Shown in pieces: positions 30,003-40,922 of a DNA stretch of 55,922 nt (position 1 is the stretch's first letter; each line of letters begins with the position of its first letter). The stretch covers positions 1-55,922 of the forward strand of contig NZ_AKZI01000004.1 of NCBI RefSeq assembly GCF_000293785.1. The letters run 5' to 3'. The position numbers and the translations under genes are program-made. This stretch comes from Rhodovulum sp. PH10 (GTDB taxonomy: Bacteria > Pseudomonadota > Alphaproteobacteria > Rhizobiales > Xanthobacteraceae). The notes beneath the pieces are model-generated. The model made no database searches. It had not been told where the DNA came from and saw nothing but the letters and a program-made list of their open reading frames with translations.

Positions 30003-30861
<859 letters not shown>

Positions 30862-31338
30862 TCAGGACGCGGCGGCGCGCCGGAGAGTGGCGATCGCCGC
30901 CCGCACCGCATGCCCCGCGAGGGCCAGCCGGTGCAGCGGCTCGGCGGGGTCATCCCCTTGCGCCACCGCGCTTTCCACCGCCTCGGCAGCGCTCACCAGG
31001 GCCCACGCGCCGATCCCGCGGGCGGAGCCTTTGAGCGTGTGCGCGAGCGTCGCGACGGCGGCCGGCGGCGCGGTGTGCATGCGGTCGGTCAGAAGCACGA
31101 TCTGCCGGTCGAACAGCTCCAAGACCTCGCGCTGGAGCGCGGCGTCGCCGAGCGTCATCCGGAACAAGTGTGCGTGATCGATGATCGCGGCCCGCGAAAC
31201 GCTCTCGTCGGGTGCCGCTCCCCCTGCTCCCGCCCCTGCCCCTGCCCCTGCCCCTGCCCCTACCCCGGCCGCCGAGACCGAGGGCCGTGGCGCGGGCGGA
31301 GCCGCCGGGCGGCGGCCCTCCCGATATCGTTCCTGCAT
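30862..31338 (-). CDS. Second orphan Hpt domain protein
   Basis: 158 residues. H100 in LAHTLKGSARGIGAW is the phospho-accepting histidine; residues about 50-155 form the Hpt bundle. The first 45 residues are low-complexity, including an Ala-Gly run encoded by five perfect GCCCCT hexamers (31232-31261 on the plus strand). No kinase or receiver gene adjoins it. AGGGG precedes the ATG. Confidence 0.83.
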   Translation of the reverse strand: MQERYREGRRPAAPPAPRPSVSAAGVGAGAGAGAGAGAGGAAPDESVSRAAIIDHAHLFRMTLGDAALQREVLELFDRQIVLLTDRMHTAPPAAVATLAHTLKGSARGIGAWALVSAAEAVESAVAQGDDPAEPLHRLALAGHAVRAAIATLRRAAAS

Positions 31339-31578: not shown

Positions 31579-31884
31579 TCACGCGCCGGGCGGAATCCGC
31601 CCGAGAATCCGGTACCCTGCGGGGGTGAGGCGGCACACCAGCCAGTCCGGCTTGAGCGGGTTGTCGAACCACGGCGTGGCCCAGCCGTGCGCCACGCAGG
31701 ACTCCACCGTCTTGCGCGGCACCGAGCGGCCCTCGCCGTCGAACAGCGGCAGCTTGCCGCCGGGCTCTGTCAGGCCGCGCTCGAGGTAGCGGCGCTGCGG
31801 CTCGGACGGCCGCACCGGCGCCACATTGTCGCCCTCGGGATGGTGAGGTACCAGGGGAACGTCCTTGGCGAGCGGCTTCGGCAT
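31579..31884 (-). CDS. Conserved hypothetical protein (about 100 residues)
   Basis: 101 residues, soluble, no signal. Characteristic segments are HHPEGDNVAPVRPSEPQRRYLERGL, PGGKLPLFDGEG, KTVESCVAHGWA and PDWLVCRLTPAGY. I recognise it as a small protein conserved in Bradyrhizobium-type bacteria without known function; the C-terminal part looks like a winged-helix fragment (LTPAGYRILG). ATG 31884 is preceded by GGAAGG. Divergent from the giant repeat gene. Confidence 0.7.
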   Translation of the reverse strand: MPKPLAKDVPLVPHHPEGDNVAPVRPSEPQRRYLERGLTEPGGKLPLFDGEGRSVPRKTVESCVAHGWATPWFDNPLKPDWLVCRLTPAGYRILGRIPPGA

Positions 31885-31910
31885 TGACACACCTTCCGCG
31901 TGACGCGCCG

Positions 31911-31935
31911 TTAACGATGATTAAAAAAGGGTTAC
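31911..31935. promoter_or_regulatory. Candidate CtrA-like sites upstream of the giant gene
   Basis: TTAACGATGATTAA (TTAA-N6-TTAA) overlaps TTAA-N7-TTACC, the latter one base from the CtrA consensus TTAA-N7-TTAAC. They sit between the divergent conserved hypothetical and the 2647-residue gene, about 180 bp before its start. The match is imperfect. Confidence 0.3.
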
Positions 31936-32112
31936 CAACTCGGTTTCCCGGATGCTGCGCGCTGGGTAGGATAGCGTGACCACAGGGGGGAATCCCAGCG
32001 GCATATCGTTCCCACCTGGGGCCGGGTCGTGTCTGCGCGCGGTGGCGCGGCGGTCCGGGTCGTCCACAGGGCCTCAGTCCTGTTCAGCGTATTGTACGAG
32101 GCATCGATCGAC

Positions 32113-35100
32113 ATGGCGAACAATCCGAAGAAGGCTCAGGATCCGACCGAGGTCGCTCTGTCGGCGATCCAGGAGGCGTTGAACATGGGCGGCGAGCGCA
32201 AGGCCGCCCAGGACCCCGACGCCACCGGCCCGACCTCGGAGGAGCCGGCCGGTCCGCCGCCGGAGCCGCGCCGCGATCGCCTCGCCCTGCCCGACACCGC
32301 CGACGCCGATTTCGCCCCCCCGCCCCGCGCGGAGTACGACCGCCGGGCGGAGTACGACGACGCCGCCGACTTCGACCCGCGCCCCTTTCCCGAGCCGCCG
32401 CGCCGGGTCGCCGATGCCCTGACGCCCGCCGCCAACGACGACCGCGAGACGATCGGCCAGGTGCTGCAGACGCTGCAGCGGCGCCCCGCCCGCACGCCCT
32501 ACATGGTGGCCGGCCTGTTCGCCGCCGCCTGGGCGATCGCCGCGATCGGCATCGTGCTCGGCTACTGGAGCGAGATCGGCGCCATGATCGCCGGCTCCGC
32601 CGCGGTGCCGCTCGCCTTCGGCATCGCCACCGCGCTCGGCGCGCCGATCGTGTTCTTCTTCGTGCTCGCCCACATGGTCGCCCGCTCGCAGGAGCTGCGC
32701 ATCGTCGCCCAGGCGATGACGCGCGCCGCGATGCGCTTCGCCGAGCCGGAGACCGTCGCCTACGACTCCGTGGTGAGCGTCGGCCAGGCGATCCGCCGCG
32801 AGGTCGCCGCGATGGGCGACGGCGTCGAGCGCGCGATCGCCCGCGCAGTCGAGTTGGAAGCGCTCGTCAACAACGAGGTCGCCGCCCTCGAGCGCGCCTA
32901 CAACGACAACGAGCTGCGCATCCGCACCCTGCTCGACGGCATCGCCCAGCAGCGCGAGACCCTGGTCGGCGAGGCCGAGCAGGTGCGCGACGCGCTCTCC
33001 AACGTCCATCTCGATCTGTCGAACGACATCTTCAACGTCTCGGAGATGGTCGGCGAGCGCTTCGACGAGGTCTCGCAGCGCATCACCAAGGCCTTGACCG
33101 ACAAGGGCGACACCATCACCGCGGCGCTCGGCACCGCCGGCGAACGGATGATCACGACGCTCGGCGAGCGCGGCGGCGACCTCCTGGAGCGGCTCGAGCG
33201 CACCAGCGAGGAGGCGACCCGCGCCATCGAGACGGTCAGCGACCGCCTGACCGACGGCATCAACCTGAAGACCGGCCACCTCAACGACGCCATCGTCGAG
33301 ATCGCCGACAACATGCAGGAGATGGTCGGCGGCCGGCTCGACCGGGTGGCCGACGACTTCGCCCAGAAGACCATCTCGCTGGTCGAGCTGATGGAGTCGC
33401 GCTCGCGCGAGATCACCGGCATGGTGATGGAGCAGTCCGACGCGATCGCCGGCACGCTGGTCGAGACCTCGACCCAGATCGCCGACACCATCGCCGAGCG
33501 GGTCGACGAGGTGAACGACACCCTCAAGGCGACCGGCGACTCGATCGTGCTCGACCTCAGCCTGCGCGGCAGCGACATCGTCTCCAAGCTCGAGGAGACC
33601 GGCGCGCGCGTCAGCGAAAGCCTCGACGAGCGCGGCGAGACCTTCACCCGCACCCTCACCGAGAGCGCCCAGGCGCTGGCCGACACCATCGGCGTGCGCG
33701 GCGACGAGGTGCGCGACCTGCTCGCCGAGCGGGTCGGCGCCTTCGAGGAGATCCTCTCGACCGGCACCGGCCGGCTGGCCGACCAGCTCGGCTCGCGCGG
33801 CGACGAGGTGCGCGACATGCTCGCCGAGCGGCTCGCCGCCTTCGAGGAGATGTTCAACACCGGCGGCCACGAGCTGGCCGAGCGGATCGGCCGCGACAGC
33901 GCGACGCTCGCCAGCCTGATCACCCGCCACCTCGCCGAGTTCGACCGCACCGTGAAGACCTATGGCGGCGAGATCGTCGAGCGGATCGGCGAGCGCACCC
34001 GCGACGTCGACGACAGCCTGAAGACCTATGTCGAGACCTTCGACGCGCGGGTGGCCACCCGCTCCACCGAGATCGCCGACGTCCTCGAGAGCCGCCTGGT
34101 CCGCTTCGAGGAGGCGCTCGACCAGCGCACCGTCTCGATCGGCGAGACCCTGACCGCGCGGGTCGCCGAGATCGGCAAGTCGATGGGCGACGGCAGCCGC
34201 GAGGTGGTCGCCGCGCTCGAGCGGCGGATCGACGAGATCACCGACACCATCGCCTCCGGCGGCGACCGGCTGGTCGAGGCGGTGGCGACCAAGATGACCG
34301 AGATCGACACCAATCTCGGCAGCCGCGCCGACGGCGTGACGGTCGCCCTCGACGACCGCATCGTCCGCCTCGAGGCGCTCCTGATCGGCCGCGCCGAGGC
34401 GCTGACCGGCGACATCGAGACGCGTAGCAAGGCCGCCGCCGACCTCCTGCTGGGCCGGGCGGAAACCCTCGCTGCCGACGTCGAGAGCCGCACCACCAGC
34501 GCCGCTGAGACGCTGCTCGGCCGCGCCGAGGCGCTCACCGCCGACATCGACGGCCGCACCCGCGCCGCCGCCGAAACCCTGCTCGACCGCACCGCCGCGG
34601 TCACCGCCGACGTCGAGACCCGCACCACCGCCGCCGCCGAGGCGATGCTCGGCCGCGCCGAGCAGGTCGCCGCCGACATCGAGAGCCGCAGCCGCAGCGC
34701 CGCCGACCTGTTCGCCGGCCGGCTCGGCGAGGCGACCACCGACGTCGAGACCCGCAGCCGCACCGCCGTCGAGGAGATGGTCGGCCGGATCGGCGGGATG
34801 GCGTCGGACATCGAGTTCCGCAGCCAGTCGGCGACCGACCGCCTGGTCGAGCGCGCCGGCACCATCGCCGGCGACATCGAGGGCCGCGTCCAGGCGGTCA
34901 CCGACCGCCTGCTCGGCCGCGCCGAGACCGTGAGCGCCGACCTCGAGAGCCGCAGCGCCGCCGCCACCGACCGCGTGGTCGGCCGGATCGGCGAGGTCTC
35001 CGCCGAGATCGAGACGCGCACCCGCGCCGCCGCCGAGCTTCTGCGCGACAGCGCCGAGGGCGTCACCACCGAGGTGGAGGTGCGCGCCCGCAGCGCCGCC

Positions 35101-38100
35101 GACCAGCTCGTGCAGACGATCGGCGGGGCCACCGCCACCATCGACGAGCGCGCCCACACCGCCGCCGACCTGTTGCGCGACAGCGCCGAGGGCGTCACCG
35201 CCGACGTCGAGGCCCGCACCCGCGCGGCCGCCGAGCGGCTGGTCGACAGCATCGGCGGGGCCACCGGCGAGATCGACGCCCGCAGCCGCGCCGCCGCCGA
35301 CCTCCTGCGCGGCAGCGTCGACGGCGTGGTCGGCGAGATCGAGATCCGCAGCCGCAGCGCCGCCGACCTGTTGCGCGAGAACGCCGAGGGCGTCACCACC
35401 GACGTCGAGGCCCGCACCCGCGCGGCCGCCGAGCGGCTGGTCGACAGCATCGGCGGGGCCACCGACGAGATCGACGCCCGCAGCCGCGCCGCCGCCGACC
35501 TCCTGCGCGGCAGCGTCGACGGCGTGGTCGGCGACATCGAGGTCCGCACCCGCAGCGCCGCCGACCTGTTGCGCGAGAACGCCGAGGGCGTCACCACAGA
35601 CGTCGAGGCCCGCACCCGCGCGGCCGCCGAGCGGCTGGTCGACAGCATCGGCGGCGCCACCGCCGAGATCGACGCCCGCAGCCGAGCCGCCGCCGACCTC
35701 CTGCGCGGCAGCGCCGAAGGCGTGGCCGGCGACATCGAGATCCGCACCCGCGCCGCCACCGACCAGCTGGTCGAGCGCACCGGCACGCTGGTGCGCGAGG
35801 TCGAGCAGTCGACCGGCGCCAGTGCCGACGCCTTCGCCGCCCGCGTGCAGGCGCTGGCCACCGAGATCGAGAACCGCACCGGCACCGCCGCGACCGTCAT
35901 CTACGATCGCTTCGAGGGTTTTGCCCGCGACATCGAGGTGCGCAGCAACACCGCCGCGACCTTCCTGTCCGAGCGCATCGACGGCTTCGGCACCGACCTC
36001 GAGGTGCGCACCGCCGCCGCGGTCGACCGTTTGGCCGAGCGCACCGAGGCGGTCGCCCACACCGTCGAGCAGCGCAGCGACACCGCCTCCGCCCTCCTGG
36101 TCGAGCGCGCCGAGCAGGCCGTCCGCACCGTCGAGGACCGCACCGGCACCGCGGTCGACCGCTTGGCCGAGCGCACCGAGACGGTCGCCCGGACCGTCGA
36201 GCAGCGCAGCGACACCGCCTCCGCCCTCCTGGTCGAACGCGCCGAGCAGGCCGTCCGCACCGTCGAGGACCGCACCGGCGCAGCGGTCGACCGCTTGGCC
36301 GAGCGCACCGAGACGGTCGCCCGGACCGTCGAGCAGTGCAGCGACACCGCCTCCGCCCTCCTGGTCGAACGCGCCGAGCAGGCCGTCCGCACCGTCGAGG
36401 ACCGCACCGGCACCTCGACCGAGGCCTTGGCCGAGCGGATGGAGCGGCTCGCCGAGCTGATCCGCCAGGCCACCGGCGACGCCGAGCAGTCGCTCGGCCG
36501 GCTCGCCGAGAGCACCACCGGCCAGGTGCGCGGCAGCGCGGCCGAGGCCGAGGCCGCCCTGGTGCGCGCCGCCGACGGCTCGACCGAGCGGCTGCGGGCC
36601 GCGGTCGACGACCTGCGCGACACCCTCGCCTCGGTGTCCGCCTCGGTCGGCGGCAGCCTGAAGGAGGACGTGGTCGCCCTCGAGCGGCTGCTCACCGACA
36701 CCGCGACCGGGGTCGGCGGGGCGCTGCGGCGCGACGCCACCGACATCGAGCAGCTGCTGCGCTCGGTCGGCGACGCGCTCGGCGGCACGCTGCGCCAGGA
36801 CACCGCCGAGGTCGAGCGGGTGCTCACCGGCGTGGTGTCCGGCATCGGCGGCACACTGAAGACCGACGCGGCCGAGTTCGAGTACGCCCTCACCCGCGTC
36901 TCCAAGGAGATCGGCGGCCGCATCCGTCAGGACACCGCCGAGATCGAGACCGCCCTCACCGGCCTGTCGGCCGAGGTGAGCGGCACCCTCAAGCAGGACG
37001 CCGCCGAGATCGAGCGCACCCTGTCGACGCTGTCGGTCGAGGTCGGCGGCTCGCTGCGGCGCGACGCCGCCGAGGTCGAGCGCACCTTGTCGGGCGTCGG
37101 CAACGGCCTGAGCGAGACCATCCGCAACGACGTCGGCGAGGCCGAGCGGATGCTGACCTCGGTCACCGCGACCGTGACCGGCACCCTCTCGACCGTCTTC
37201 ACCGAGGTGCGCGAGACGCTCGCCCGGGATTCCGCCGAGATCGAGCGCGCCCTGTCGGCGGTGTCGGCCGGCGTGCGCGACGTGATCCGCCAGGACACCG
37301 CCGAGATCGAGCAAACCCTCACCTCGGTCTCCTCCGGCGTGCGCGACATTCTCCGCCACGACGCCGGCGAGGTGGAGCGCAGCCTCACCGCGCTGTCGTC
37401 CAACGTCAGCAGCACGCTGCGCGGGGACGCTGCCGAGGTGGAGCGCGTGCTCACCACCGCGACCAGCGGCCTGTCCGGCACGCTGCGGACCGACGCCGGC
37501 GAGCTCGAGCGCACGCTCACCGGCCTGTCCGACACCGTCGGCGAGGCGCTGAAGCGCAATGCCGCCGAGGTCCGGGAAACCCTGCTCGGGGTCGGCACCG
37601 AGGTCGCCGACACCTTCGTCGGCAAGGCCGAGGAGATCGCCGGCGCGATCGAGACGCGCTCGGGCGAGCTGAACGCCGTGCTCGACGAGAAGAGCAGCGT
37701 CCTGATCGCGGCGATGACCGCCAAGGGCGGCGAGTTCACCGCCGGCATGACGCGGGTCACCGACAGCGCGGTGAAGTCGATCGAGGCCAAAGCCTTCGCC
37801 TTCACCCAGGCGATGATGGACAACTCCAACGAGCTCGCCCGGGTGATCACCGAGGCCAGCACCAAGGCCACCGACTCCGTCAACAAGAGCCTGAAGGACC
37901 TGCAGGACACCTCGCGCAACGCGGTCACCGACTCGGCCGCCACGCTCACCAAGCGGATGCAGGACTGGCAGGAGATCACCCGCACCACCGTCGCCCAGTC
38001 GGCCGCCGGGCTCACCCAGAAGCTGCAGGAGCTGCAGGAAACCACCCGCACCTCGGTCACACAGTCGACCACCGCCCTCACCCAGAAGGCGCACGAGCTG

Positions 38101-40056
38101 CAGGAGCTGACCAAGAGCGTGATCGGCCAGACCACCGCGGTGTTCACCGAGCGCACCAAGGAGCTGCAGGACACCACCAAGGCCGTGGTGAGCCAGTCGA
38201 CCCTGGTGCTCACCGAGAAGACCCGCGAGCTGCAGGACACCACCCGCATGGTGGTCGGCCAGACCACCACGGTGTTCGCCCAGAAGGCGAACGAGCTGCA
38301 GCAGTCGACCCGCACCAGCGTCGAGGAATCGACCGCGATCGTGCTCGAGCAGGTCGAGACGCTGCAGAACGCCACCCGCAGCGCGGTCGAGCAGTCGAAG
38401 GAGACCGCGGTCGCCACCGTCTCCGAAATCCTCGAGACGCACGGCATGCTGCGCTCCGACACCACCGCGCTGTTCGAGCGGCTGCGTGACGCCAATGCGC
38501 TGATCCAGGAGGTCTTGGGCGGCGCCCAGGACAATCTCGGCGCGATCGAGCAGGGCCTGTCGTCGCGGGTGACCGACTTCGTCACCACCATGAACGAGCT
38601 CTTGGCCCGCACCAACGACACCACCGACCGGGTCAACGACCATATCGGCTCGTTCCAGGACATCAGCAGCAAGGTGCTCGGCGAGCTCGGCTCGATCGTC
38701 GAGCAGTTCGACAGCCACGGTCGCTCGCTGACCGAGATGGTCGACCTGATCGAGGGCTCGAACCGGCGCAGCGAGGAGGCCTTGTCCGACCGTCGCGGCG
38801 AGCTCGACGCGATCGTCGCCACCCTCGACGCCCGCACCGAGGACCTCGACATGCGGCTCAAGCGCTTCTCGGGCCTGCTCGAGGAATCGCTCGCCGCCGC
38901 CGAGGGCCGCGCCCGCGACATCGCCCGGGTCGTCGCCGAGGCGAGCTCGCAGAGCACGCGGGCGATCGCCGAGAACCACGAGCAGGTGCGGGTCACCGCC
39001 GAGGAGGAGCGCCAGCGCACCGCCGAGAGCCTGCGCGGAATCTACGAGCAGGCCTCGAACGAGGCGCACGCGCTGTTCCGCCAGACCTCGAACGAGGCCG
39101 AGGGCATGCTGCAGGCCGCCAACGAGCGGTTCGCGGAAGTGCTGCAGAACATGAAGCAGATGACCGCCGAGATGCAGCAGGAGCTCGACGGCACCCGCCA
39201 GGAGCTGCGGCGCGGCATCCTCGAGCTGCCGCAGGAGACCGCCGACAGCGCGGCCCAGATGCGGCGGGTGATCGTCGACCAGATCGAGGCCTTGGCCGAG
39301 CTGAACCGCATCGTCGCCCGCCACGGCCGCACGATCGACACCGCGGCGGCCGAGCAGCCGGCGCAGCAGGCCCGCCGGGCCTATCGCGAGGAGCCGGCGG
39401 CGCTGGTCGCGGTCGGCGGCGGCGGTCGCGCCGAGCCGGCCCGCCAGGCGATGCCGCCGATGCGGGAAGCCGCCTCGCCGCGCGCCGAGATGCCGATGGG
39501 TCCGCCCGTCTCACCGGTGCCGCAGCCGCCGCGTCGCGGCGAGCCGCCGATGCCGGCCCCCTCGGTCCAGCCGGCGGCGACCGCTGCCCGTGGTGGCGGC
39601 TGGCTGTCCGACCTGCTCACCCGCGCCTCGCGCGAGGACGAGGGCGAGGAGCGTGCGCCGGAGCGTGCCGGGCCCCGGCAGGAGAGCCGTCCGGACGACC
39701 GCTCGGCGCACTGGTCGATCGAGTCGCTCGACTCGCTGTCGGTCGACATCGCCCGGATGATGGACCACGACGCCGCCGCCGAGCTGTGGGACCGCTACAA
39801 CCGCGGCGAGCGCAACGTCTTCACCCGCCGGCTCTACACCATGCAGGGCCAGAAGACGTTCGACGAGATCCGCAAGCGCTACCGGGCCGACCGGGAGTTC
39901 AAGCAGACCGTCGACCGCTACATCGACGAGTTCGAGCGGCTGCTCGAGGAGGTCTCCCGCAACGACCGCGGGCAGGTCGTCTCGCGCACCTACCTGACCT
40001 CGGAGACCGGCAAGGTCTACACCATGCTGGCGCACGCGGCGGGACGGTTCGAGTGA
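32113..40056 (+). CDS. Giant membrane-anchored apolipoprotein-like repeat protein, Growth Pole Ring (GPR)-like
   Basis: 2647 residues. Acidic N-terminal region (1-125); two adjacent TM segments at about 131-154 and 160-195; from about 220 to 2330 almost unbroken amphipathic helix in 22-residue steps, for example five successive units such as QSTTALTQKAHELQELTKSVIG near 1960-2070; a Pro-rich linker (about 2430-2530); and a compact non-repetitive C-terminal domain (about 2536-2647, DIARMMDHDAAAELWDRYNRGE). This matches Agrobacterium GPR, a roughly 2100-residue apolipoprotein-like protein that forms a ring at the growing pole. Role in polar growth is inferred. ATG 32113 is chosen since relatives start MANNPKK; the ribosome binding site is weak and the frame extends to 32029. 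Confidence 0.85.
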   Translation: MANNPKKAQDPTEVALSAIQEALNMGGERKAAQDPDATGPTSEEPAGPPPEPRRDRLALPDTADADFAPPPRAEYDRRAEYDDAADFDPRPFPEPPRRVADALTPAANDDRETIGQVLQTLQRRPARTPYMVAGLFAAAWAIAAIGIVLGYWSEIGAMIAGSAAVPLAFGIATALGAPIVFFFVLAHMVARSQELRIVAQAMTRAAMRFAEPETVAYDSVVSVGQAIRREVAAMGDGVERAIARAVELEALVNNEVAALERAYNDNELRIRTLLDGIAQQRETLVGEAEQVRDALSNVHLDLSNDIFNVSEMVGERFDEVSQRITKALTDKGDTITAALGTAGERMITTLGERGGDLLERLERTSEEATRAIETVSDRLTDGINLKTGHLNDAIVEIADNMQEMVGGRLDRVADDFAQKTISLVELMESRSREITGMVMEQSDAIAGTLVETSTQIADTIAERVDEVNDTLKATGDSIVLDLSLRGSDIVSKLEETGARVSESLDERGETFTRTLTESAQALADTIGVRGDEVRDLLAERVGAFEEILSTGTGRLADQLGSRGDEVRDMLAERLAAFEEMFNTGGHELAERIGRDSATLASLITRHLAEFDRTVKTYGGEIVERIGERTRDVDDSLKTYVETFDARVATRSTEIADVLESRLVRFEEALDQRTVSIGETLTARVAEIGKSMGDGSREVVAALERRIDEITDTIASGGDRLVEAVATKMTEIDTNLGSRADGVTVALDDRIVRLEALLIGRAEALTGDIETRSKAAADLLLGRAETLAADVESRTTSAAETLLGRAEALTADIDGRTRAAAETLLDRTAAVTADVETRTTAAAEAMLGRAEQVAADIESRSRSAADLFAGRLGEATTDVETRSRTAVEEMVGRIGGMASDIEFRSQSATDRLVERAGTIAGDIEGRVQAVTDRLLGRAETVSADLESRSAAATDRVVGRIGEVSAEIETRTRAAAELLRDSAEGVTTEVEVRARSAADQLVQTIGGATATIDERAHTAADLLRDSAEGVTADVEARTRAAAERLVDSIGGATGEIDARSRAAADLLRGSVDGVVGEIEIRSRSAADLLRENAEGVTTDVEARTRAAAERLVDSIGGATDEIDARSRAAADLLRGSVDGVVGDIEVRTRSAADLLRENAEGVTTDVEARTRAAAERLVDSIGGATAEIDARSRAAADLLRGSAEGVAGDIEIRTRAATDQLVERTGTLVREVEQSTGASADAFAARVQALATEIENRTGTAATVIYDRFEGFARDIEVRSNTAATFLSERIDGFGTDLEVRTAAAVDRLAERTEAVAHTVEQRSDTASALLVERAEQAVRTVEDRTGTAVDRLAERTETVARTVEQRSDTASALLVERAEQAVRTVEDRTGAAVDRLAERTETVARTVEQCSDTASALLVERAEQAVRTVEDRTGTSTEALAERMERLAELIRQATGDAEQSLGRLAESTTGQVRGSAAEAEAALVRAADGSTERLRAAVDDLRDTLASVSASVGGSLKEDVVALERLLTDTATGVGGALRRDATDIEQLLRSVGDALGGTLRQDTAEVERVLTGVVSGIGGTLKTDAAEFEYALTRVSKEIGGRIRQDTAEIETALTGLSAEVSGTLKQDAAEIERTLSTLSVEVGGSLRRDAAEVERTLSGVGNGLSETIRNDVGEAERMLTSVTATVTGTLSTVFTEVRETLARDSAEIERALSAVSAGVRDVIRQDTAEIEQTLTSVSSGVRDILRHDAGEVERSLTALSSNVSSTLRGDAAEVERVLTTATSGLSGTLRTDAGELERTLTGLSDTVGEALKRNAAEVRETLLGVGTEVADTFVGKAEEIAGAIETRSGELNAVLDEKSSVLIAAMTAKGGEFTAGMTRVTDSAVKSIEAKAFAFTQAMMDNSNELARVITEASTKATDSVNKSLKDLQDTSRNAVTDSAATLTKRMQDWQEITRTTVAQSAAGLTQKLQELQETTRTSVTQSTTALTQKAHELQELTKSVIGQTTAVFTERTKELQDTTKAVVSQSTLVLTEKTRELQDTTRMVVGQTTTVFAQKANELQQSTRTSVEESTAIVLEQVETLQNATRSAVEQSKETAVATVSEILETHGMLRSDTTALFERLRDANALIQEVLGGAQDNLGAIEQGLSSRVTDFVTTMNELLARTNDTTDRVNDHIGSFQDISSKVLGELGSIVEQFDSHGRSLTEMVDLIEGSNRRSEEALSDRRGELDAIVATLDARTEDLDMRLKRFSGLLEESLAAAEGRARDIARVVAEASSQSTRAIAENHEQVRVTAEEERQRTAESLRGIYEQASNEAHALFRQTSNEAEGMLQAANERFAEVLQNMKQMTAEMQQELDGTRQELRRGILELPQETADSAAQMRRVIVDQIEALAELNRIVARHGRTIDTAAAEQPAQQARRAYREEPAALVAVGGGGRAEPARQAMPPMREAASPRAEMPMGPPVSPVPQPPRRGEPPMPAPSVQPAATAARGGGWLSDLLTRASREDEGEERAPERAGPRQESRPDDRSAHWSIESLDSLSVDIARMMDHDAAAELWDRYNRGERNVFTRRLYTMQGQKTFDEIRKRYRADREFKQTVDRYIDEFERLLEEVSRNDRGQVVSRTYLTSETGKVYTMLAHAAGRFE
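35170..35763 (+). repeat. Three 198-bp tandem repeats inside the GPR-like gene
   Basis: Unit starts at 35170, 35368 and 35566. Each encodes three 22-residue helices (for example LRGSVDGVVGEIEIRSRSAADL) and the DNA copies are nearly identical, pointing to recent duplication or gene conversion. Confidence 0.9.
36022..36417 (+). repeat. Three 132-bp tandem repeats inside the GPR-like gene
   Basis: Unit starts at 36022, 36154 and 36286. Each encodes two 22-residue helices (VDRLAERTETVARTVEQ..., ...LLVERAEQAVRTVEDRTG). Units 2 and 3 differ by only a few bases. Confidence 0.9.
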
Positions 40057-40133: not shown

Positions 40134-40310
40134 TTCGCGTTTCTGGAGGTCTTTTCGGTGGACCGCGCGGCAGCGGCAAGGCCGCCTGCCCCGCCGCCTG
40201 CGCCACCTGGGCCGCCGCCCTGCCCCATCGGCTCGGAAAAGCCACGCTTTCTTGGTGACGCCGACGGCGGAACGTGGGATTGCGGGATCGCCGACACCGA
40301 GGAGCGAGCC

Positions 40311-40922
40311 ATGGACGAGCGCGCGAGAAGCACCGCAGCGGACACCATCGCCGGGCACTTTCGCGCCTCCTGCGAGGCGCTCGACCGCGCCGCGAACGAC
40401 CCCGCTCTGCTCGCCTCGGTGCAGGCGATCGCCGACGCGGTGACCTTGGCCTACCGCGCCGGCGGCAAGCTCCTGGTCGCCGGCAATGGCGGCAGCGCCG
40501 CCGACGCCCAGCACATCGCCGCGGAATTCCTCTCGCGCATGAACTTCGACCGCGCGCCGCTGCCGGCGGTGGCGCTGACCACCGACACCTCGGTGCTGAC
40601 CGCGGTCGGCAACGATTTCGGCTTCGACCTCCTGTTCGAGCGCCAAGTGCGGGCGCTCGGCCGGCCGGGCGACGTGTTTCTGGCGATCTCCACCTCGGGA
40701 AAATCGCCCAATGTGCTGGCGGCGCTGCGGGCGGCAAAGGAGATCGGCGTCACCACCGTGGGCTTCACCGGCAATCGCGACAGCGAGATGACCGCGCTGT
40801 GCGACCATCTGCTCGCCGCCCCCACCCCGGCGACCCCGCTGATCCAGCAGATCCACATCGTCGCCGCGCACGCGATCTGCACGCTGGTCGAGGACGCTTT
40901 GTTCGGGCCCGCCGCCCCGTGA
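40311..40922 (+). CDS. gmhA: Phosphoheptose isomerase (SIS domain)
   Basis: 203 residues. Converts sedoheptulose 7-phosphate to D-glycero-D-manno-heptose 7-phosphate, first step of ADP-heptose synthesis for the LPS core. Motifs: [47 protein letters not shown], and [16 protein letters not shown] 40311 follows GAGGAGCGAG; the open frame upstream is proline-rich and unlike the family. Overlaps the next gene by 4 nt (GTGA). Confidence 0.9.

Follow-up and report, generated by a model that had tools for sequence, protein, structure and literature searches.

An array of 11-residue helical units, varying in length amongst orthologues often by multiples of 11, in a GPR/RgsE-family protein of Rhodovulum sp. 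PH10

The growth pole ring protein GPR of Agrobacterium tumefaciens forms a 200-nm ring with six 50-nm foci and is needed for polar growth; it is described as containing a helix of ~1700 residues that matches the Apolipoprotein family PF01442, and its C terminus is essential (PMC8262873). RgsE, the published homologue of GPR in Sinorhizobium meliloti, shares 42% identity with it, and its partners include RgsA, RgsS and TolQ (PMC7327166). In Brucella abortus a homologue localises to the new pole (PMC9938171), and GPR/RgsE has been called a promising scaffold candidate for tip growth in the Rhizobiales (PMC7822825). In the current study we analysed a stretch of 55,922 nucleotides (the window) from Rhodovulum sp. 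PH10 (contig NZ_AKZI01000004.1), the host genome being 4.83 Mb and 99% complete. The window contains a gene for a 2647-residue protein of this family (Table 1), most of which is an array of 11-residue units held in a constant phase.

A preliminary description of the locus, made from the sequence alone, had proposed that the protein is the orthologue of Agrobacterium GPR, and comparison with S. meliloti bears this out. A protein search of plasmid records led to the S. meliloti record CP090106.1, whose gene encodes 2089 residues, equal to the published length of RgsE (PMC7327166). The membrane region of the window protein is 40% identical to that of S. meliloti RgsE over 281 columns (E=7e-61), and the C-terminal domain is 65% identical over 99% of its 118 residues. 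Synteny, which had been put forward as a check, agrees: the order ferredoxin-Hpt-gpr is common to the window and S. meliloti, with both neighbours upstream on the opposite strand, and the downstream genes differ. On these alignments the two conserved regions, the gene order and the match in RgsE length support orthology of the window protein to S. meliloti RgsE. The link to Agrobacterium GPR, also supported, runs through the published RgsE-GPR identity, the sequence compared with the window protein here being that of RgsE. CP090106.1 itself, a 3.7 Mb record labelled pSymB, carries rgsE, folP, petA and other chromosomal-looking genes, and is probably a mislabelled chromosome.

The C-terminal domain was found in 374 of the 397 genomes of the order Rhizobiales, in 140/149 of the family to which the window belongs and in 197/199 of a second family, taken to be Rhizobiaceae. 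At the level of the class it occurs in 116/290 genomes, 111 of them outside the order. Together with a Sphingomonas case discussed below, this count suggests that the sequence family may be spread more widely than in Krol et al.

The frame proved intact over 7.9 kb, as first described, and the use of ATG 32113 as the start is backed by three congeners that start alike (MANYPKKAKDPTEVALSAIQEALN vs MANNPKKAQDPTEVALSAIQEALN). In order, the domains are a Pro-rich N-terminal tail, two membrane helices, a conserved block, the 11-residue array, a distal helical block, a Pro-rich linker and a C-terminal domain. The two transmembrane segments previously placed near the N-terminus are the only ones that hydropathy finds in the 2647 residues, and both are modelled as helices by AlphaFold2. 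A two-helix membrane hairpin with the bulk of the protein in the cytoplasm is thereby predicted, as in GPR and RgsE. An N-terminal hidden Markov model (HMM) matches in 101/101 loci of a core Rhizobiales set, in 40/40 loci of a further Rhizobiales panel (40 of 66, chosen for intact frames) and in 24 of the 39 scored loci of a class panel, which comprised 40 loci with intact frames from the 111 matching non-Rhizobiales genomes, one (L274) being too short to score. N-terminal and C-terminal domains lie in one frame in all 103 orthologues that were measured, and the LP motif closing the distal block could be assigned in every one of them.

The distinct C-terminal domain of the preliminary description is indeed present, after the distal block and the linker. 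The window copy matches nothing in Pfam above cut-off (41 members gave E 0.0034 at best), and its model, of moderate confidence, has no fold match in the PDB (Foldseek best E 1.0). The N-terminal model likewise has no significant PDB match (best E 2.0; threshold E <= 0.001). A known fold was rejected for either domain on these values, and a new fold is not claimed for the C-terminal domain, its model being only moderately confident. An antisense open frame of 2416 residues (window 32074-39324, minus strand) spans most of the gene; it is taken as a by-product of repetitive GC-rich coding sequence and not as a gene.

The array had been described as exactly periodic in 22 residues over some 2100 residues. 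The 22-residue signal is strong (identity autocorrelation at lag 22 = 0.298, z = 35.7 vs 50 shuffles), but the repeat unit is 11 residues and 22 is a superperiod. Lags 44 and 66 come next (z 33.3 and 28.7, 50 shuffles), then lags 55, 77, 33 and 11; the superperiod is strongest at ~residues 700-2100, and lags 11, 33 and 55 lead at ~200-700. Hydrophobicity has its dominant period at 3.667 (=11/3) residues, where the power is 176 times the white-noise expectation. From the N anchor to the distal block, 57 segments of 66 residues were cut, and 55 of the 56 that could be scored have a phase at most 45 degrees off one direction, the reference direction being derived from the same data; the phase is constant across ~1850 residues (~residues 266-2110). 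Within the 11-residue unit of the window array, the residues at positions 0, 3, 4 and 7 (a, d, e and h in hendecad naming) are non-polar or small. ILVMF make up 94% of position h, and no more than 1% of the residues at a, d and h carry a charge. Residues 230-2340 (2111 residues) contain no Pro, against 46 in the other 536 residues. PF01442 matches with 316.8 bits (cut-off 90, E=5.8e-95) in 15 stretches, compared with 257.8 bits in S. meliloti RgsE. Structure prediction, another of the checks first proposed, covers the start of the array only, where a single helix is predicted by AlphaFold2 for residues 238-340 (block pLDDT 89-96 past the first residues).

Array length was compared in 103 rows, consisting of a 100-locus panel, the window, S. 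meliloti and Shinella, a Sphingomonas row having been dropped because it has no N anchor. The panel was chosen among the better matches listed, with open frames of at least 1146 residues, and contains no broken, contig-end or short genes, so that lengths lean high. The span, measured from the N of NELRIR after the hairpin to the P of the LP motif before the linker, extends from 666 to 2790 residues (median 1447), about a fourfold range in which the window array ranks 9th. The excess of about 500 residues over GPR given in the preliminary description is therefore real but not special: among the matches listed, open frames in the order reach at least 3392 residues, and an exceptional length of the window protein was rejected. 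Within the sample of its own family the window has the longest open frame among the matches listed (2693 vs 2491 for the next).

Taken modulo 11, the spans fall mainly into class 6 (35/103) and class 10 (21/103), with chi-square 106.9 and p = 2e-18; kinship is ignored in this and the other modular tests. The corresponding p values are 0.60 for modulo 7, 0.07-0.23 for modulo 9, 10, 13 and 18, and 0.017 for modulo 12, and the adjoining linker is flat modulo 11 (p = 0.69). When a second anchor is used, which lies inside the distal block and is probably wrongly placed in a few rows, the concentration is the same (35 and 22 of 103). In sister pairs, taken from a quick tree built on the conserved domains alone, array length is unequal in 34/34. 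Of these 34 differences, 17 can be divided by 11 without remainder, where 3.1 would be expected (binomial p = 1e-9), compared with 2, 5 and 2 for division by 7, 10 and 12; linker differences are multiples of 11 in 4/34. Four Rhodoplanes arrays, of 2107, 1766, 1678 and 1612 residues, differ from one another by multiples of 11 throughout. Tandem duplication in the DNA is the visible mechanism of length change, two recent examples being present in the window gene (Table 1).

The 103 anchored arrays hold 73 Pro in 150,958 residues, against 2107 in 15,981 residues of linker; 50 arrays have none and the maximum is 6. With looser array limits the Pro content per 1000 residues is higher, at 2.7 in core, 5.9 in further Rhizobiales and 2.1 in class arrays vs 0.5 in the anchored arrays, probably from included linker. 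Net charge is negative in all 103 arrays (median -5.7 per 100 residues).

Outside the order the repeat unit is a different one. The best identity lag is 25 in 23/39 loci and 50 in 4/39, which gives a 25-residue unit in 27/39, and the dominant period lies at 3.56-3.59, near 25/7, in 32/39 (median 3.576 in the 21 tested for MreB). Core Rhizobiales have a period of 3.65-3.67 in 89/101 and a best lag that is a multiple of 11 in 81/101, or else 29, 36 or 40; lags 18, 29, 36, 40, 43 and 47 are all sums of 11s and 7s. Sixteen Rhizobiales with short arrays, grouped on the tree, have intermediate periods of 3.598-3.634 (one 3.664), the period being only coarsely resolved for arrays of 400-600 residues; nine of these genomes bear MreB and seven lack it. 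MreB was searched in 80 genomes (40/40 further Rhizobiales, 21/40 class, 19/101 core), and true MreB was found in 21/21 class genomes, 9/40 further Rhizobiales and 0/19 core genomes, including that of the window. In the window genome PF06723 scores best in two frames, of 687 and 781 residues (58 and 31 bits); these were rejected as MreB and read as DnaK-like, true MreB elsewhere scoring at least 271 bits. A period of at least 3.645 occurs in 39/50 MreB-less vs 1/23 MreB-bearing rows. Repeat period and MreB loss broadly go together in these counts; there are only 6 changes of each on a tree of the 165 rows with both conserved parts, and a paired test is uninformative because the independent changes are too few.

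Rgs proteins and MreB have been stated to be mutually exclusive (PMC7327166). Nine Rhizobiales loci with a GPR-family gene come from genomes with a true MreB (L282, L283, L289, L294, L297, L301, L303, L306 and L313), and these qualify the published exclusion. Outside the order, four GPR-family frames of 1979-2418 residues (L268, L243, L246 and L272) likewise occur with MreB, which is odd if length serves polar growth only.

The sequence data show the homology, the anatomy, the phase, the quantised lengths and the recent duplications. We favour, as a reading that is probable without being secure, a phase-constrained, membrane-anchored helical rod, orthologous to GPR/RgsE, that scaffolds the growing pole in an MreB-less Rhodoplanes. 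A two-helix hairpin would anchor the protein in the inner membrane, and beyond it the 11-residue units would form an amphipathic helix that is free of proline and essentially continuous. Side-by-side association of such helices into a hendecad coiled coil (a parallel dimer or higher) may give a rod of up to ~300 nm. The rod would be anchored at the foci and would displace the end domain from them. At its far end a flexible linker would lead to this small helical domain, a probable binding site for further proteins of the growth pole. Array length would change by tandem duplication and deletion, with changes that keep the 11/3 phase strongly over-represented; the anchor and the end domain would tend to keep a defined rod face while the distance between them is free, and length may in turn affect ring size. 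The lack of MreB in the window genome is consistent with this role at the polar wall. An alpha helix rises 0.15 nm per residue, so that a straight helix of 1700 residues would measure ~255 nm. The Agrobacterium study proposes lipid sorting by GPR, and also folding, since 1700 residues are equated with 600 nm (PMC8262873); that figure corresponds to ~0.35 nm per residue, and the published argument that GPR must fold needs re-examination.

Deletion data from Agrobacterium bear on the rod in both directions. GPR lacking 332 C-terminal residues still forms paired foci and does not restore cell shape (PMC8262873), which fits an end domain that serves partners rather than ring assembly. With 221 C-terminal residues removed, depleted cells lose the polar foci, show a diffuse signal and become round (PMC8262873); this does not fit simply with a rod plus an end domain, and is the first of several points that tell against our reading. 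Secondly, GFP-GPR appears as 50-nm foci, from which folding is inferred in the Conclusions of the same paper (PMC8262873); the tag is N-terminal, however, so in our own reading the foci may mark the anchors only. Thirdly, human ApoA-IV shows a hydrophobic face of equal narrowness and regularity, so the face alone is no proof of a coiled coil. Fourthly, GPR-family proteins occur in MreB-bearing genomes and are therefore not confined to MreB-less growth. Finally, 17 of the 34 sister pairs do not differ by multiples of 11, and part of the 11-residue stepping can stem from biased mutation in 33/66-bp repeat DNA and not from selection on phase. For its coiled-coil deletions the Agrobacterium paper states 20 and 21 residues, located at 413-433 or 413-434 (PMC8262873).

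A neutral account is possible although we think it unlikely: the array would be a length-tolerant spacer drifting by repeat slippage, the steps of 11 would merely reflect the DNA repeat unit, and neither ruler nor phase function would be involved. The recent 198-bp and 132-bp tandem duplications in the window gene agree with this, as do the unequal lengths of all 34 sister pairs, which look like fast drift. Yet Pro is nearly absent from the 103 arrays and charged core residues from the window array, which indicates that the helix itself is under selection, and the phase is kept in 55/56 scorable segments though the recent duplications cover only part of the array.

We give somewhat less credence to the published idea of an apolipoprotein-like lipid binder, in which the array lies on, or sorts, the lipid of the growth-pole membrane as amphipathic helices of 11/22 residues. 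GPR deletion data are read in this way in PMC8262873. The PF01442 match lies far above its cut-off, and human ApoA-IV is matched in sequence (3s84, E=2.8e-8) and shares the three-position hydrophobic face; a difference in face width from apolipoproteins was rejected, the widths being equal. Apolipoproteins are recognized by proline-punctuated 22-residue units and by class A helices with basic residues on both flanks. The window array does not show the proline-punctuated unit of apolipoproteins A1/A4/E, with 0 Pro in residues 230-2340 vs 6/185 residues in ApoA-IV. Less clearly, K/R amount to 59% on both flanks in ApoA-IV (+65 and -98 degrees from the face centre), whereas in the window array they lie mainly on one flank (50% at -63; 6% at +67 and 21% at +100). 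The net negative charge of all 103 arrays disfavours a position on an anionic membrane, and the 25-residue units of 27/39 scored non-Rhizobiales members also speak against lipid binding; a different repeat unit outside the order calls into question the apolipoprotein label as a guide to function. Proline scarcity, the negative charge, the single helix modelled for residues 238-340 and, less clearly, the basic flanks favour a coiled-coil rod over a lipid-bound ribbon, a preference that we hold with moderate confidence.

An evolutionary extension of the rod reading is offered as a conjecture, and a doubtful one. MreB-bearing Alphaproteobacteria would retain ancestral 25-residue units (~3.57 residues per turn, a hendecad plus two heptads), from which, through intermediates near 3.62, a longer and mostly pure-hendecad array (3.66) would have arisen on the branch to the MreB-less polar growers. 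GPR would then be a phase-locked ruler: rod length, altered in steps of 11 residues (~1.65 nm), would determine ring geometry at the growth pole species by species. The orthologue series, with arrays of 666-2790 residues (~100-420 nm if straight) between the same anchor and end domain, offers a direct test of a ruler, and the 11-residue steps a sharp genetic test of phase.

It is highly improbable that the array serves a proton-driven motor as its tail, in the manner of the long cytoplasmic ZorA tail and perhaps together with TolQ: NCBIfam ZorA models match it, an RgsE-TolQ interaction has been found by two-hybrid and pulldown (PMC7327166), and the N region weakly matches a MotA/TolQ/ExbB chain (E=0.82), but the ZorA scores are far below their cut-offs (26.1 vs 190 and 25.5 vs 700 bits) and concern the array only, the N-terminal model has no significant PDB match, and a MotA/TolQ/ExbB-like membrane domain was found neither by Pfam nor as a fold at E <= 0.001.

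The neighbouring genes are conserved to different degrees. A divergent Hpt-like gene stands within 3 kb upstream in 83/101 core and 32/40 further loci (115/141 Rhizobiales) and in 8/39 non-Rhizobiales loci, and its phospho-accepting His is retained in 83/86 of the first set checked. A ferredoxin homologue is present in the fetched stretch in 100/101 core and 36/40 further loci (136/141 Rhizobiales) and in 2/40 of the class panel. Since ferredoxin is kept more often than Hpt within the order, Hpt is not specially linked; its case as a specific partner is weakened, and general gene-order conservation may explain the linkage. SMc00191, presumed to be the tag of the S. meliloti Hpt gene, occurs in none of the papers searched. 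On a Sphingomonas replicon (L130:7637-7930 and L130:8033-10357) a short GPR-family gene stands beside a divergent Hpt-like gene in which the His is replaced by L, possibly a pseudo-Hpt. Between hpt and gpr the window has a 103-residue frame without a Pfam match (31579-31890, minus strand), with homologues at 21/101 core, 2/40 further and 3/40 class loci. Directly downstream of gpr lies a gene for a SIS-domain protein (window 40158-40922, plus strand), a position held by another gene in S. meliloti.

Paired TTAA motifs mark the divergent promoter. With at most one mismatch, TTAA-N7-TTAA occurs in the 450 bases upstream at 85/101 core and 26/40 further loci, against 1/100 and 0/39 in downstream controls; exact sites occur at 27 core and 8 further loci, against 0 and 0. 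Spacings 6 and 8 are enriched too, and outside the order there is a small excess (8/38 vs 2/38). These clusters resemble CtrA boxes. The passage on CtrA in S. meliloti in PMC4433202 makes no mention of rgsE.

Table 1. Features of the gpr locus in the window (positions in the 55,922-nucleotide stretch)
Feature	Position	Strand	Evidence or remark
2Fe-2S ferredoxin-like gene	30003..30338	-	PF00111, 48.1 bits
Hpt phosphotransfer-domain gene, divergent neighbour	30862..31338	-	PF01627, 31.8 bits (cut-off 24.6); phospho-His conserved
TTAA-pair cluster, divergent promoter	31911..31935	.	TTAA-N6-TTAA and one-mismatch TTAA-N7-TTAA; no exact N7 site in the window
GPR/RgsE-family gene, 2647 residues	32113..40056	+	Intact frame; PF01442; homology to S. 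meliloti RgsE
Membrane helix 1, residues 128-150	32494..32562	+	Hydropathy; AlphaFold2 helix, block pLDDT 95-98
Membrane helix 2, ~residues 164-190, running on into a cytoplasmic helix	32602..32682	+	Hydropathy; AlphaFold2 helix 164-210
Conserved block after the membrane hairpin, with NELRIR (N anchor for lengths)	32680..32982	+	Alignments, N-terminal HMM
11-residue (hendecad) array, residues 266-2110	32908..38442	+	Period 3.667, constant phase, core positions, no Pro
Recent tandem duplication, 198-bp (66-residue) unit, 3.2 copies	35139..35764	+	93% matches; best 132 nt 99.2% identical at lag 198
Recent tandem duplication, 132-bp (44-residue) unit, 3.3 copies	35999..36437	+	93% matches; best 132 nt 97.7% identical at lag 132
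Distal conserved helical block, ~residues 2127-2373 (~250 residues), partly off the 11-residue phase	38491..39231	+	Ends at LP motif
Pro-rich linker, ~residues 2374-2528	39232..39696	+	22 Pro among the 162 residues measured as linker
C-terminal all-alpha domain, residues 2529-2647 (~120 residues)	39697..40053	+	Model pLDDT 76.5, pTM 0.68

A literature search found no report joining hendecad, coiled coil and Alphaproteobacteria, and among the papers listed for the growth pole ring together with repeats, coiled coils or variation in length, none deals with GPR. Literature on apolipoprotein, growth pole ring, Hpt and Rhizobiales was also searched, and the portions covered of PMC9022086, PMC8262873 and PMC7327166 do not address array steps or the repeat unit. 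The step-of-eleven and repeat-unit results are thus new only as far as these searches reach, the 2019 GPR paper and supplements lying outside them.

Amongst the systems compared, human ApoA-IV resembles the window protein in its 11/22-residue amphipathic helix and equally narrow hydrophobic face, and differs in being proline-punctuated and basic on both flanks. ApoA-IV is also a small, secreted protein without such a membrane hairpin or C-terminal domain. Relatives outside the Rhizobiales, such as that of Sphingomonas parapaucimobilis (WP_347091011.1, 774 residues), share the C-terminal domain (35% identical in Sphingomonas), N-terminal hydrophobic segments (37/39) and a long array, and differ in their lag of 25 or 50, in the presence of MreB (21/21) and in how seldom a divergent Hpt-like gene accompanies them (8/39). 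GPR of A. tumefaciens (Atu1348, 2115 residues), compared by its published architecture only, is ~530 residues shorter and is likewise described with two N-terminal membrane helices, PF01442 and a Pro-rich region (PMC8262873). S. meliloti RgsE (SMc00190 in print) has the same PF01442-type array, membrane region, Pro-rich linker, C-terminal domain and ferredoxin-Hpt-gpr order; it differs from the window protein in length (2089 vs 2647 residues), in lag-22 identity (0.17 vs 0.30) and slightly in period (3.654 vs 3.666).

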